64,000 nt of DNA from Paracoccaceae bacterium (GTDB lineage: Bacteria; Pseudomonadota; Alphaproteobacteria; Rhodobacterales; Rhodobacteraceae): assembly GCA_018222585.1 (NCBI GenBank), contig JAAFAB010000003.1:623781-687780 (forward strand). The letters are read 5' to 3'. Under the pieces are notes generated by a model that saw only the letters and a list, made by a program, of their open reading frames with translations, had not been told where the DNA came from and did not search any database. Of the stretch, positions 30,243 to 61,973 are shown one piece after another. A program made the translations under genes and the position numbers. Positions within the stretch are counted from its first letter, which is position 1, and the number at the start of each line of letters is the position of its first letter.

Positions 30243-30564
30243 GGGAACCTCCGTGAAAACTCAGGCGTGACACCATGTGGCGGGGCGAAGGTCAAGGGAT
30301 ACCGCCCGGGCCGGGCGGTTGCCTCCGGCGGGAGTACTTTCAGCCTGGTGATGATGCAGGAGGTGGATCTTTCCGGGCGACCTACTTTCGCCTTCGGGAG
30401 CGTGCCACGCTCTCATTGCAAAAGGAGGCCACGAGAAGGGCCCGACCCTCTTCATCATCACCAGGCTGAAAATACTCCGGGGGAGGCCGCGTCAGCGGGC
30501 GGGGGCAGAGCCCCCTCTGCTGCGACCTGTCGCCCAGACGCGACGAGGGCGGAGCCCCCACCCG
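30243..30564. other. Intergenic region with a large inverted repeat
   Basis: These 322 bases between rnhA and ispH are occupied mainly by repeat copy A (30321-30515). A small palindrome, ACCGCCCGG-GCC-GGGCGGT, lies at 30301-30319. The rnhA promoter must be in the first 80 bases on the minus strand. No gene is seen. Confidence 0.7.
30321..30515. repeat. Intergenic palindromic repeat, copy A
   Basis: The left arm starts GCCTCCGGCGGGAGTACTTT and continues CAGCCTGGTGATGATG (30321-30356). It is the near-perfect reverse complement of the right arm (about 30453-30487), which ends GCTGAAAATACTCCGGGGG. The arms are about 35 bases and enclose about 96 bases. A second GC hairpin GGGGGCAGAGCCCCC follows at 30501-30515. 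The right-arm core and the GC hairpin recur at 38932-39055 and 52553-52660. Confidence 0.85.
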
Positions 30565-31530
30565 TCAGGCCGGTTGGCGCAGCACCCGGGGGACCTTGAA
30601 TTCGACGTTCTCTTTCGCGGTCTCGACCATTTCCTCGGTGACGTCGTAGCGGGCTTTCAGCGCGTCGATGACCTCGTTCACCAGCACTTCGGGGGCCGAG
30701 GCGCCGGCGGTGATGCCGATCGAACGGATGCCTTCGAGGGCGCGCCAGTCGATGTCGGTGGCGCGCTGGACAAGCTGGGCATAGGGGCAGCCCTGGCGCG
30801 CGGCGACTTCCACCAGGCGGCGGGAGTTCGACGAATTGGGCGCGCCGACCACCAGCATGGCGTCGATCTTGCCTGCCATGGCCTTCACCGAGTCCTGGCG
30901 GTTGGTGGTGGCGTAGCAGATGTCTTCCTTGTGCGGCCCGACGATGGCCGGGAAACGCGCCTGCAGGGCGGCGACGATGCCCTTGGTGTCATCCACCGAA
31001 AGGGTTGTCTGGGTGACGAAGGCCAGTTGCTCGGGGTTGCGCACGGCCAGCGTTTCCACGTCGGCCTCGGTTTCGACCAGAAGGACTTCGCCTTCGGGCA
31101 GCTGGCCCATGGTGCCGATTGTCTCGGGGTGGCCGGCATGGCCGATCATGACGATCTGCAGGCCGTCCTCAGAGTGCCGCTCGGCCTCGATATGGACCTT
31201 GGAGACCAGCGGGCAGGTGGCGTCGACGTAGACCATCTCGCGCCGCGCGGCCTCGGCGGGTACGGCCTTGGGCACGCCATGGGCCGAGAAGATCACCGGG
31301 CGGTCCGGCGGGCATTCGTCCAGCTCTTCCACGAAGATGGCGCCCTTGTCGCGCAGCCCGTCGACGACGAACTTGTTGTGCACGATCTCGTGGCGGACGT
31401 AGACCGGGGCGCCCCATTTCTCCAGCGCCATCTCGACGATCTTGATGGCACGGTCGACACCGGCGCAGAAGCCGCGGGGCGCGGCCAGGTAGAGCGTCAG
31501 CGGTGGTTTGGGCGTGGCGGGGGCGTTCAT
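30565..31530 (-). CDS. ispH: 4-hydroxy-3-methylbut-2-enyl diphosphate reductase
   Basis: A 321-residue iron-sulfur enzyme, the last step of the MEP isoprenoid pathway, giving IPP and DMAPP. The three cluster cysteines are in RGFCAGV (Cys22), DATCPLV (Cys106) and [11 protein letters not shown] (Cys205). EIVHNKFVV and [12 protein letters not shown] ([15 protein letters not shown]) blocks bind substrate. The ATG at 31530 has GAGGA 9 bases upstream; an ATG at 31563 in the same frame is an alternative with a weaker context. It is a single-gene unit here. Confidence 0.96.
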
Positions 31531-31704
31531 CGGTTCAGATCCTCGGGCGTCTCCTGCTGGCACACAGGTAGGGTTTTCGGCGCCCGAGGTCCAGAGCGGC
31601 CCTTGCGGGTGGTCACGGGTGGGCCCGGCCGTCCCCCGGGACGGGGTGGCCGGGTGCGGCGGCGGGATGGGACGCCTCGCGCGGGTCCCGCCTCGTGACG
31701 GAGG

Positions 31705-32274
31705 TCAGACCGTGGCGCGGCTGGAGCTGCGATCCTCGGTGGTTTCGCGCGGCGGGCGTCCGATGACTTCGCGCAGCTCGTCGAGCTCGATGAAGTTGTC
31801 GGCCTGGCGGCGCAGCTCGTCGGCGATCATCGGCGGCTGGCTGCGGATGGTCGAGACCACCGAGACCCGCACGCCCTGACGTTGCAGGCTTTCCACCAGC
31901 GGTCGGAAGTCGCCATCGCCGGAGAACAGCACGATGTGATCGACGCGGGGCGCCAGTTCCATGGCATCGACCGTCAGCTCGATATCCATGTTGCCCTTCA
32001 CCTTGCGACGACCCTGGCTGTCAGTGAATTCCTTGGCCGGTTTGGTCACCATGGTGAAGCCGTTGTAATGCAGCCAGTCCACCAGGGGGCGGATCGGCGA
32101 ATACTCGTCATTCTCCAGCAGCGCGGTGTAGTAGAAGGCCCGCAACAGCTTGCCGCGACGCATGAATTCCTGTCGAAGGAGTTTGTAGTCGATGTCGAAC
32201 CCGAGCGCCTTCGCGGCGGCGTAGAGGTTGGACCCGTCTATGAACAGCGCAAGCCGTTCGTCTTTGTAGAACAT
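31705..32274 (-). CDS. NYN domain (LabA/DUF88) protein, predicted RNase
   Basis: A 189-residue NYN-domain protein. LALFIDGSNLYAAAKALG (first Asp), FYYTALLENDEYSPIRPLVDWLHYNGF, KGNMDIELTVDAMELA and VLFSGDGDFRPLVESLQRQGVRVSVVST give the four acidic residues of the PIN-like active site. It is probably a metal-dependent ribonuclease. The C-terminal 25 residues are charged and low in complexity. The ATG at 32274 is preceded by GGAAAGG; a TTG one codon earlier is possible. It diverges from folK across 111 bases. Confidence 0.9.
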   Translation of the reverse strand: MFYKDERLALFIDGSNLYAAAKALGFDIDYKLLRQEFMRRGKLLRAFYYTALLENDEYSPIRPLVDWLHYNGFTMVTKPAKEFTDSQGRRKVKGNMDIELTVDAMELAPRVDHIVLFSGDGDFRPLVESLQRQGVRVSVVSTIRSQPPMIADELRRQADNFIELDELREVIGRPPRETTEDRSSSRATV

Positions 32275-32385
32275 CAAAAAACCTTTCCAATTTCACTGCC
32301 CGGATCCAAAGAGGGAGAGTGAGACCCGACCCGGAACAGATCCTTGAAAATAAATGTTGCCAAAGGATGCATCAAGTGACGGACC

Positions 32386-60385: not shown

Positions 60386-60447
60386 GACGCTTGACCGGCG
60401 CGCCCGGCTGGCCGACCATCCCCGCAACCAGCGGAGGAGAGGACGCC

Positions 60448-61047
60448 ATGCGGAAACTACAGGTGCAGGGGGTGCATCACATCACCCTCACCGGCGCCGA
60501 CCGGCAGACCAGCATCGACTTCTGGGAGGGCGTGCTGGGAATGCCCTTCGTCTTCGATCAGCCCAACCTCGATGATCCGAACCAGGGGCATCTCTACTTC
60601 GATCCCGGTGACGGGCGGCTGATCACCATCTTCACCAACGAAGAGCGCAAGCGCGTCCATGACCGCACGCCGATGGATCCCGGCTGCGTGCATCACCTGG
60701 CCTTCAACGTTTCTGCCGCCACCTTCGCCCAGGCCGTCAGGCGGCTGGACGAGCGCGGTATCCACCACTCGGGCGTCAAGGACCGGGGCTTCATGGATTC
60801 GATCTACTTCAAGGACCCCCTCGGCCTGCTGATCGAGCTGGCCAGCTACAAGTTCTTCCCGCCCGAGGGCTCGACCCATGCCGAGGTGCTGCTGGAAGCC
60901 CACAGGATCCGGATCGACCGCGGCGATTACAACATCGCCGAAGAGCACCTGGCCGATGCCATCGAACGTATCGTGGAACGCCGCACCGGAACCCTGTCCG
61001 ACAGCCGGGCGCCGGCGGACCCTTACAGCGGACAGTCCGGGGGCTGA
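60448..61047 (+). CDS. VOC (glyoxalase/dioxygenase-fold) family protein
   Basis: A 199-residue metal-binding VOC protein. The N-terminal module has QGVHHITLTGADRQTSIDFWEGVLGMPFVFDQ, whose His is the first metal ligand. HLYFDPGDGRLITIFTNEER follows, and the second module has VHHLAFNVSAATFAQAVRRLDERGIHHSGVKDRGF and SIYFKDPLGLLIELASY with the Glu ligand. A C-terminal extension (about 65 residues, HAEVLLEAHRIRIDRGDYNIAEEHLADAIERIVERR) is unusual. It could be a lyase, isomerase or ring-cleaving dioxygenase. GGAGGAGAGG precedes the ATG. Confidence 0.87.
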   Translation: MRKLQVQGVHHITLTGADRQTSIDFWEGVLGMPFVFDQPNLDDPNQGHLYFDPGDGRLITIFTNEERKRVHDRTPMDPGCVHHLAFNVSAATFAQAVRRLDERGIHHSGVKDRGFMDSIYFKDPLGLLIELASYKFFPPEGSTHAEVLLEAHRIRIDRGDYNIAEEHLADAIERIVERRTGTLSDSRAPADPYSGQSGG

Positions 61048-61866
61048 CTACCGGGACGGGGACCACTCCGCCGGATCGAGGGCGAAGAACCGGCTGAGCT
61101 GGGCATAGACCTCGGGCGCGTGGTCGCGGATCCGGTGCGGGGTCTCGAAGAAGGCTTCGACGGCCACGGCGAAGAACTCCTGCGGGCCCTCGGCGCCATA
61201 GGGATCGAAGAGGGTCTGGCGGTGGTTCTCGACCCGGTAGACATGCTGGGCGAAAGCCTCCTCAAAAACGTGGCGCCATTCGGCGGGGTCCTGTCCCGGC
61301 GCGAGCTCGGGCATCCCGTCGGTCGCGCCGGACAGGTCGTCCAGCTGATGCGCGAACTCGTGGAACACCACGTTGTGCCCGTCGTGCGGCAGGTCGGCAC
61401 CGCGCTGCGTGTCCGCCCAGGACAGCACGACCGGCCCACGCGACCAGCTCTCGCCGGTGCGCACCGTCATGCGCTCGGTCACCACGTAGCCGTCATGGTC
61501 CTTCATCCGCGAGCGGAAGGCGCCGGGATAGACCAGCACGCTGCGCAGGGTGTCGTACCAGGCGCCCGAATTGGCCACCAGCAGGCAGGCCTGGGCAGCG
61601 ATCGACAGGCGCATCTCTTCGGTCACCTCCAGCCCGTCGCAGCCGACGAAATCCACCTGGTCGAGGAAATCGGTGATCCGCGCCTCGTAGCCGGCGCGCA
61701 GATGCGACGGCAGGGCCCGGGACAGGGGCACCTCGGCGGCGACAACGGCGCGTTCCTCCTCGCTCAGGCCCGCGCTGCGACGCGCCTCGCGAGCCTTCCG
61801 GCGCGCAAGGCTCCAGAAGGCGAAGGCCGCGACGAGGATCAGGACGAAAAGCAGGAAAGGGATCAT
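61048..61866 (-). CDS. MtfA-type zinc-dependent peptidase
   Basis: A 272-residue M90-family protein. An N-terminal transmembrane helix (about residues 3-20) is followed by a soluble domain with the zinc motif HEFAHQLD (HExxH, 169-173), the second ligand region in EFFAVAVEAFFETP and the conserved LVYPGAFRSR and VLSWADTQRGA. E. coli MtfA acts on the Mlc repressor. Here membrane tethering and a different host make the target unknown. Its stop abuts the VOC stop with no spacing. Confidence 0.9.
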   Translation of the reverse strand: MIPFLLFVLILVAAFAFWSLARRKAREARRSAGLSEEERAVVAAEVPLSRALPSHLRAGYEARITDFLDQVDFVGCDGLEVTEEMRLSIAAQACLLVANSGAWYDTLRSVLVYPGAFRSRMKDHDGYVVTERMTVRTGESWSRGPVVLSWADTQRGADLPHDGHNVVFHEFAHQLDDLSGATDGMPELAPGQDPAEWRHVFEEAFAQHVYRVENHRQTLFDPYGAEGPQEFFAVAVEAFFETPHRIRDHAPEVYAQLSRFFALDPAEWSPSR

Positions 61867-61950
61867 GGGCGCCTCGGGGTGGATCGTTCCCTACCTAGTC
61901 ACCCTCACCGCAAAGACAAAGGCCGACAGACCGGGCGCCACGTCCTGGCC

Positions 61951-61973
61951 CATCACCAGGCTGAAAATACTCA
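61951..61973 (+). repeat. Intergenic repeat, copy D (fragment)
   Basis: The sequence CATCACCAGGCTGAAAATAC plus TCA matches the inner right arm of copy A exactly over about 21 bases, then diverges. It has no left arm and no GC hairpin. It lies between mtfA and the dapA terminator. Confidence 0.6.

Follow-up and report, generated by a model that had tools for sequence, protein, structure and literature searches.

Word-specific, REP-like repeats behind genes of Rhodobacteraceae with a compensating tail hairpin

The window analysed in this study is a stretch of 64,000 nt from contig JAAFAB010000003.1 of a genome in the genus of Pseudooceanicola (Rhodobacteraceae; 5.15 Mb, 63 contigs), and the elements in question are four intergenic repeat copies, A to D; coordinates are window positions unless a contig or stretch of the C46 or L type is named. 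These copies belong to a repeat family widespread in the Rhodobacteraceae, whose unit is a half-site made of a lineage-specific word of 8–10 nt, GGC in the own lineage, a mostly free NNN and the box AAATACT[C/G]C. Its half-sites stand alone or form inverted pairs, the two halves of which are separated by about 20 or about 99 bp. The explanation favoured here, although held tentatively and with somewhat less than even confidence, is that of a REP-like (repetitive extragenic palindromic) non-coding family at gene ends, which is inherited and whose half-sites would be read by a putative lineage-specific factor acting in trans.

Spelled out in full, the half-site has 23 nt, word(8)-GGC-NNN-AAATACT[C/G]C, and carries on its outer side a tail of type L (CGCCGGAGGC) or of type R, which consists of CGGGGG, a hairpin of variable sequence and GGGGGCnnnGCCCCC. 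A search of the complete own genome with a 20-nt R core at up to 3 mismatches returned 87 + 84 = 171 sites, far more than chance would give (0 for the reversed pattern). Half-sites were collected from a sample of 1,605,172 bases, composed of the whole contig C46 and of stretches chosen for holding copies, using a detector that asks for a tail and leaves halves with more than 3 mismatches undetected. It yielded 199 tailed half-sites (0 in the reversed sequence), which comprise word class 1 (CATCACCA; 72 R and 40 L, 112/199) and word class 2 (AT[T/C]CGA; 50 R and 37 L). C46 carries 60 halves per 726 kb, and the family total is some hundreds of copies. About one third of the half-sites are unpaired. 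The 67 inverted pairs, two of which overlap and share a right half, are of the types L/R (52), R/R (11) and L/L (4); both halves belong to class 1 in 40 and to class 2 in 25, with 2 mixed pairs. The halves are preferentially separated by 16–22 (34/67) or 95–105 bases (29/67), with 4 others. The GGGGGCnnnGCCCCC hairpin goes with the R tail (of its 151 occurrences in the sample, 111 adjoin an R box), and folding hardly favours a hairpin immediately outside L tails (-16.8 vs -15.8 kcal/mol). A pre-existing L+R target split by the palindrome was considered and rejected, with no uninterrupted L+R sequence found by three exact patterns in the sample. The own genome also has another small hairpin repeat, GGGGGCTCGATGCCCCC (or the complement), often beside GGGGGCnnnGCCCCC and without a half-site.

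All four copies were located by direct reading at the positions given in a previous sequence-only reading of the window, which had described A and B as inverted repeats, C and D as partial copies, and the outer box and the GGGGGCAGAGCCCCC hairpin as shared. A (class 1) and B (class 2) are full inverted pairs; C and D are each a single half-site, of class 2 and class 1, respectively, and the box with the hairpin is common to A, B and C, with D lacking the hairpin. The inverted-repeat picture was corrected in that the two sides may differ in their outer tail and in that many sites are singles.

Inheritance of the elements was followed by comparing C46 over 400 kb with the sister species P. antarcticus (G123), which gave 341 orthologues (median 91 per cent) and 319 syntenic intergenic regions. 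The box detector found elements in both species in 23 of these regions, in the own genome only in 6 and in P. antarcticus only in 1. By alignment, a P. antarcticus counterpart exists for 40 of the 44 tailed halves that the own genome has in these regions (19 class 2, 16 class 1 and 5 class-switched). The remaining 4 are both halves of locus 473, where P. antarcticus has no recognisable element, and one half each of loci 501 and 619, at which a class-2 form, changed or decayed, can be made out. The intergenic region matching the tailless copy D holds no element in G123, and locus 389 carries one in P. antarcticus only. Most loci compared between the two species have been inherited in place.

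At these orthologous loci, two class-2 dialects were distinguished, ATTCGA...CTCC and ATCCGA...CTGC. Thirteen of the 19 orthologous class-2 halves differ at both arm position 4 and box position 8 (11 with clean letters, T-C vs C-G, and 2 with own box T or A), one differs at the box position only and 5 at neither. Counted per column (n = 19, with the GGC columns set by construction), arm position 4 differs 13 times, box position 8 14 times and other columns 0–3 times; two free C/T columns differ 9 and 11 times. The two positions are linked in the 87 class-2 halves of the own sample (60 T-C, 20 C-G, 4 C-C, 0 T-G, 3 other). A whole-genome search of the own genome gave 58 matches, with 21 T-C and 4 C-G among the 25 listed. 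The P. antarcticus class-2 halves are uniformly C-G (26/26 in the sample, 68/68 in the whole genome), G135 (Oceanicola sp. S124) holds 51 C-G and 3 T-C halves of 54 in its whole genome, and G128 shows 2 T-C and 1 C-C. The adjoining R tails (n = 24) remain orthologous in character, being 0.883 identical between orthologues vs 0.719 and 0.731 between paralogues. Class-2 motif identity is 0.850 between orthologues and 0.829 between non-orthologues of the two genomes; P. antarcticus copies compared with one another reach 0.912, and those of the own genome, with their mixed dialects, 0.832.

Individual loci illustrate how these differences may have arisen. Both arms can change together at orthologous loci: the pair at locus 509 has switched class in its two arms but kept its tails. 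Of the own arms at locus 554, one is wholly T-C, and the other combines the box of one dialect with the arm of the other; 5/25 class-2 pairs are mixed at arm position 4. At locus 513, a rare NNN is shared with P. antarcticus although the dialect bases differ, and the same holds for the left half of copy B, whose box has decayed in P. antarcticus. The rare NNN kept beside changed dialect bases at two loci argues for point-wise change, and block class switches argue for conversion; both processes may occur.

The distribution was determined across 120 family genomes, of which 55, including the own, contain the bare L box without inner word, with no control matches. GGCTGA beside the box is present in 2/120 family genomes (the own and, as one copy, G044) and in 7/22 genomes of the genus, counting the own. 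Close examination of four genomes from other genera, with 7–9 loci read per genome for words, showed that they contain the same box with words of their own, which are alike within a genome and different between genomes: CTTCATCTTG in G110 (7/7 loci read, of 31 matches), TTCGA[T/G/A]TTTC in G001, CTTCTTCTCG and CTTTTTCTGG in G044 and CTTCTCTTCG in most loci read in G088. More than one word class is found in some genomes. A blastn search of copy B against plasmid records returned 8 records (Paracoccus, Sagittula, Ruegeria, Salipiger) covering 33–42 per cent of the query. Turnover is seen at loci A and B, which lie around an rsh gene, among those relatives of the genus that have both flanking genes. 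At locus A, G121 holds an element whose arms differ and whose tails are reversed, and G120 and G126 hold none, insertion boundaries not having been worked out; locus B contains an R-type half alone in G126 and G140 and an L-type half in G128. In G126 (L092), a repeat of its own, GCCGCCGGCTCCGCAGGAG..CGGCAGGCG..GGCTCGATGCCG, was observed in both intergenic regions matching copies A and B of the own genome.

The sequence-only reading had also noted that the inner arms differ between copies while each matches its partner, and had taken this as compensatory maintenance of the hairpin. The first part agrees with most pairs, and the arms of A and B differ because the two copies belong to different word classes. 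Copy-by-copy upkeep of pairing predicts that the own partner fits better than that of a same-class stranger. The comparison was made in 60 of 65 pairs, one overlapping pair having been dropped beforehand and 5 odd or mixed ones omitted. Paired positions amounted to 104 (own) vs 105.1±4.1 (stranger) in short class 1 (9 pairs), 264 vs 265.0±6.3 in short class 2 (23 pairs) and 837 vs 804.1±20.1 in long class 1 (28 pairs), the last value being reached by 108/2000 permutations. Folding energies with own and swapped partners were -810 vs -798±25, -356 vs -368±9 and -2467 vs -2413±37. Since the own partner fits about as well as a stranger within the class, the inner arms show no compensation, and the second part of the claim was not borne out. 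The long class leans slightly to own pairing (108/2000 permutations; 6/60 by folding energy), so that a weak effect may exist there. Arms of unlike class were found in 2/67 pairs (class chimeras). In G001, which belongs to another genus, three pairs with two box types match poorly (5/18, 11/21 and 5/19 paired), and further pairs carry one word at both ends.

Covariation, proposed as a check in the sequence-only reading, was found in the hairpin of the R tail, and the clear compensatory variation sits in this tail hairpin, between the box and GGGGGCAGAGCCCCC. The hairpin is highly variable, with 92 distinct sequences among 103 typical tails (of 122 R halves). When hairpin halves were swapped between tails of equal length, the total folding energy of 73 R tails changed from -596 kcal/mol to -334±21 (300 permutations, best -398). 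An alignment of 22 R tails of one length (20 distinct) showed pairing in 95.0 per cent of the cells vs 77.3 after shuffling, 38 vs 13.6 cells changed on both sides and a covariation score of 0.391 vs 0.092±0.022 (each 0/500 shuffles; slid controls at most 0.153). Changes on either side are found for 5 of the 6 stem pairs, each of which varies at both bases; the closing GGGGGC/GCCCCC stem is invariant and hence uninformative on covariation. Among 16 comparable orthologous tails, 96 stem pairs are identical, 4 changed on both sides and 3 on one side. A G-U strand test on the hairpin (1 GT vs 8 CA) was set aside, as it involves few events and partly related copies.

The position of elements relative to genes was assessed with a home-made GC3-trained gene caller, not compared with annotation, counting intergenic regions of at least 80 bp. 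On the whole contig C46, elements are held by 18/50 convergent, 21/154 tandem and 1/94 divergent regions (convergent vs divergent, Fisher p 7e-9); in the stretches chosen for copies, the corresponding numbers are 29/63 convergent and 47/228 tandem. Only 1/199 half-sites lies inside a called gene. The notion of an intergenic family, put forward for the window, was thus borne out genome-wide, with elements leaning to gene 3' ends and scarce in divergent regions. For own singles flanked by genes, a gene 3' end lies at the tail side in 51/63 and at the word side in 36/63. Among 43 L-type sites of other genera, left from 59 loci after removal of repeats and of sites without two flanking genes, it lies at the tail side in 20 and at the word side in 28, and 18/28 word-side stop codons are 15–31 bp from the box. 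As own and other-genus sites favour opposite sides, the elements are associated with gene ends and are not bound to a single orientation. The 40-nt stretches preceding single halves fold at a mean of -13.1 vs -10.3 kcal/mol for shuffled sequence, which is suggestive of neighbouring terminators.

The words behave like a signal that is carried by sequence. Genome-wide dialects, two linked positions, switching half by half and inheritance in place are what a changing sequence-specific reader would leave. According to the favoured explanation, a trans-acting factor (protein or RNA) would read word and box sequence-specifically, its specificity would drift between lineages, and sites would be drawn to the current dialect half by half, by point substitution and sometimes by replacement between boxes. 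The tail would act as an RNA or DNA hairpin in which chiefly pairing matters. A likely role would lie at the transcript ends of converging or tandem genes, in termination, 3' processing or stabilisation, with the inverted pair serving both directions; the position and the tail hairpin, mainly the former, are what suggest it. The usual explanations of short bacterial repeats are transposase parasites or structural hairpins, and the two can be told apart here within one element: the tail keeps mainly pairing, and the half-site keeps sequence, with two linked positions co-differing at most orthologous class-2 sites. If a factor does read the sites, the dialects of the family would form a ready series for finding it and for studying the co-change of binder and site, and the Rhodobacteraceae, a family with marine and photosynthetic bacteria in wide use as models, would gain a described gene-end element.

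Several observations weigh against this explanation. No reading factor was found in a search aimed only at Y1 transposases. Own class-2 copies are no more alike than orthologues, and class 1 is without a concerted shift (orthologues 0.947, paralogues 0.931 and 0.925). Rare NNN were kept at two loci only, with the box decayed in P. antarcticus at one of them, and loci 509, 537 (alignment unclear) and 672 switched class as a block. The linkage alone could reflect two old subfamilies overwriting each other by gene conversion. Elements are present in 6/102 divergent regions of the stretches picked for copies, and their orientation to genes is variable, own singles favouring the tail side and other-genus L-type sites the word side. 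A T-tract terminator rule, scanned over 25000-44000, gave no site at copies A and B. Two of the five covariation measures do not rise above the shuffles (pairs changed on both sides, 5 vs 4.5; pair types, 10 vs 9.6). The tail stems are almost without G-U pairs (531 Watson-Crick, 1 GT and 8 CA in tail-gene sense), so that quasi-palindrome correction at the DNA level may lie behind them.

A further reading, considered decidedly improbable, is a genome-wide address system behind genes that is read by base pairing, with a guide RNA or with element transcripts pairing in trans; word and box would be recognised and NNN would form an unpaired bulge. Mutual complementarity over hundreds of gene ends would then force one dialect per class and genome, which would explain why any arm pairs as well with strangers and would let dialects drift fast between species.

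Among known systems, the family most closely resembles, by position, copy number and doublets, the REP repeats and their hairpin-forming doublets (REPINs), also known as bacterial interspersed mosaic elements (BIMEs). These are likewise short, extragenic and of high copy number, form singles and inverted doublets with preferred spacing and have lineage-specific sequences; REPs are scarce in divergent regions, as is the present family. It differs by its bipartite motif with the mostly free NNN, its two exchangeable tails and its dialect differences at the same locus. A REP-associated tyrosine transposase (RAYT; Y1_Tnp, PF01797) gave 0 matches in the own genome and in 7/8 other carriers searched. 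G044 alone of the nine carriers has a Y1_Tnp match (L253, G044:C33:2681-3037), in a 561-aa open frame, longer than a typical RAYT. Conservation of pairs vs singles was 0.965 vs 0.947, 0.970 vs 0.966 and 0.926 vs 0.936, halves with more than 3 mismatches being undetected; in REPINs, according to PMC3116915, doublets are better conserved than singlets. A GTAG or CGTC tag at one end is a feature of RAYT-linked REPs, to go by the title of PMC3733652. Because no RAYT was found in the own genome and the conservation of singles is close to that of doublets, the family is called REP-like, and identity with REPINs in the strict sense was rejected.

Conversion between copies and an unknown transposase are nevertheless real rivals. 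A REPIN-type non-autonomous element, copied by a non-RAYT transposase and with word classes as co-evolving subfamilies, is possible, if doubtful. It would fit the inverted doublets with two main spacings, the extragenic distribution, the coexistence of several word classes in some genomes, the reversed tails and other arms at locus A in G121, and the restriction of copy D to the own genome and of the locus 389 element to P. antarcticus. The best case of a copied element is provided by two nearly identical long elements of the own genome, C46:298994-299139 and C46:302942-303087, which lie 4 kb apart with interiors 94 per cent identical and unrelated outer flanks. Such copying is opposed by the 40/44 tailed halves found at the same locus in P. 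antarcticus, by the divergence of long-element interiors (median identity 68 per cent), by the conservation of singles and by the lack of Y1_Tnp matches in the own genome and in 7/8 other carriers; the small mobile palindrome considered in the sequence-only reading accordingly receives weak support. The two elements at C46:298994 and C46:302942 flank a gene block that resembles pca genes by eye. Homogenisation of words by gene conversion or recombination between copies alone, without need for a reader, appears unlikely. The block replacement between boxes at locus 509, the class switches at loci 537 and 672 and the mosaic pairs (5/25 class-2 pairs mixed at arm position 4, 2/67 mixed in class) speak for it, but the R tails adjoining the words, likewise repeated, remain orthologous, a rare NNN was retained beside changed dialect bases at two loci, and class 1, with 112/199 halves, lacks such a shift.

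The view that the hairpin is maintained by compensation as a bidirectional terminator, mRNA stabiliser or RNase III site, taken over from the sequence-only reading, is considered quite unlikely. The position behind genes, complementary arms in most pairs, the compensation in the R-tail hairpin and the slight own-pairing lean of the long class agree with it. It is contradicted by inner arms that pair with strangers nearly as well as with their own partners, by the third or so of half-sites that are single yet about as conserved, by the poorly matching arms of three G001 pairs and by the lack of a T tract at A and B. Bidirectional intrinsic terminators share the location between convergent genes and GC-rich hairpins with the family, whereas A and B are without a T tract, and what the family keeps is arm sequence, not arm pairing. 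A DNA uptake sequence (DUS) with dialects, as in Neisseriaceae, with inverted pairs in terminators, is highly improbable. According to PMC3630211, DUS also combine dialects between related species with inverted pairs behind genes, but intragenic DUS are common, and DUS identity was rejected as half-sites are almost never coding (1/199). Moreover, uptake signals generally number 1,000 or more, according to PMC1852404, as opposed to some hundreds of copies here, and nearly all retained half-sites carry a tail, with a hairpin in the R form, which is in part an effect of the detector's demand for a tail. Miniature inverted-repeat transposable elements (MITEs) are similar in being inverted repeats without a gene; they differ from the family, whose tails are conserved outside the inverted repeat and whose ends are L/R, R/R or L/L.

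A described RNA family as the identity of the elements was rejected, with no Rfam match at gathering score on any element of the window; at E up to 5, the region 30250-39100 with copies A and B gave only two miRNA models, far below gathering scores. A description of the family was not found in the open-licence literature, sequence strings included, which does not establish its absence from print. The parts of the four copies are compiled in Table 1.

Table 1. Coordinates of repeat copies and associated hairpins (window positions unless C46 or L is given)
Feature	Position	Strand	Basis
Copy A, L tail, CGCCGGAGGC read on - strand	30321..30330	-	sequence
Copy A, left half-site, class 1, CATCACCA-GGC-TGA-AAGTACTCC on - strand	30331..30353	-	sequence
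Copy A, long interior separating the halves by 102 bp, tip hairpin GGGAGCGTGCCACGCTCTC	30354..30455	.	sequence
Copy A, right half-site, class 1, CATCACCA-GGC-TGA-AAATACTCC	30456..30478	+	sequence
Copy A, R tail: GGGGG, variable hairpin, GGGGGCAGAGCCCCC	30479..30515	+	sequence
Copy B, L tail	38934..38943	-	sequence
Copy B, left half-site, class 2, dialect ATTCGA/CTCC, TATTCGAC-GGC-CAC-AAATACTCC on - strand	38944..38966	-	sequence
Copy B, 21-bp spacer holding AAGAGGCCCTT	38967..38987	.	sequence
Copy B, right half-site, class 2, TATTCGAT-GGC-TGA-AAATACTCC	38988..39010	+	sequence
Copy B, R tail: GGGGG, hairpin ACTCCGCGAAGCGGAG, GGGGGCAGAGCCCCC	39011..39046	+	sequence
GC-rich hairpin GGGCCCG...CGGGCCC, then TTTCT, directly upstream of half-site C and downstream of the stop of called gene 51429-52490	52527..52549	+	sequence, gene call
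Copy C, single half-site, class 2, CATTCGAC-GGC-TGA-AAATACTCC	52556..52578	+	sequence
Copy C, R tail with GGGGGCAGAGCCCCC	52579..52610	+	sequence
Copy D, single half-site, class 1, box AAATACTCA, without recognisable tail	61951..61973	+	sequence
GGGGGCTCGATGCCCCC repeat, examples	C46:609016 and 609042, L108:7662-7703, L142:12251-12291, L145:12873-12911		

Behind the R tail of copy A, within 30479-30564, a second remnant, GAGGGCGGAGCCCCC, adjoins the stop of a called gene (30565), the stop that a single R tail abuts in P. antarcticus. The window also contains two cobalamin riboswitches (Rfam RF00174), at 23394-23594 on the - strand (109.6 bits) and at 5639-5847 on the + strand (76.3 bits).

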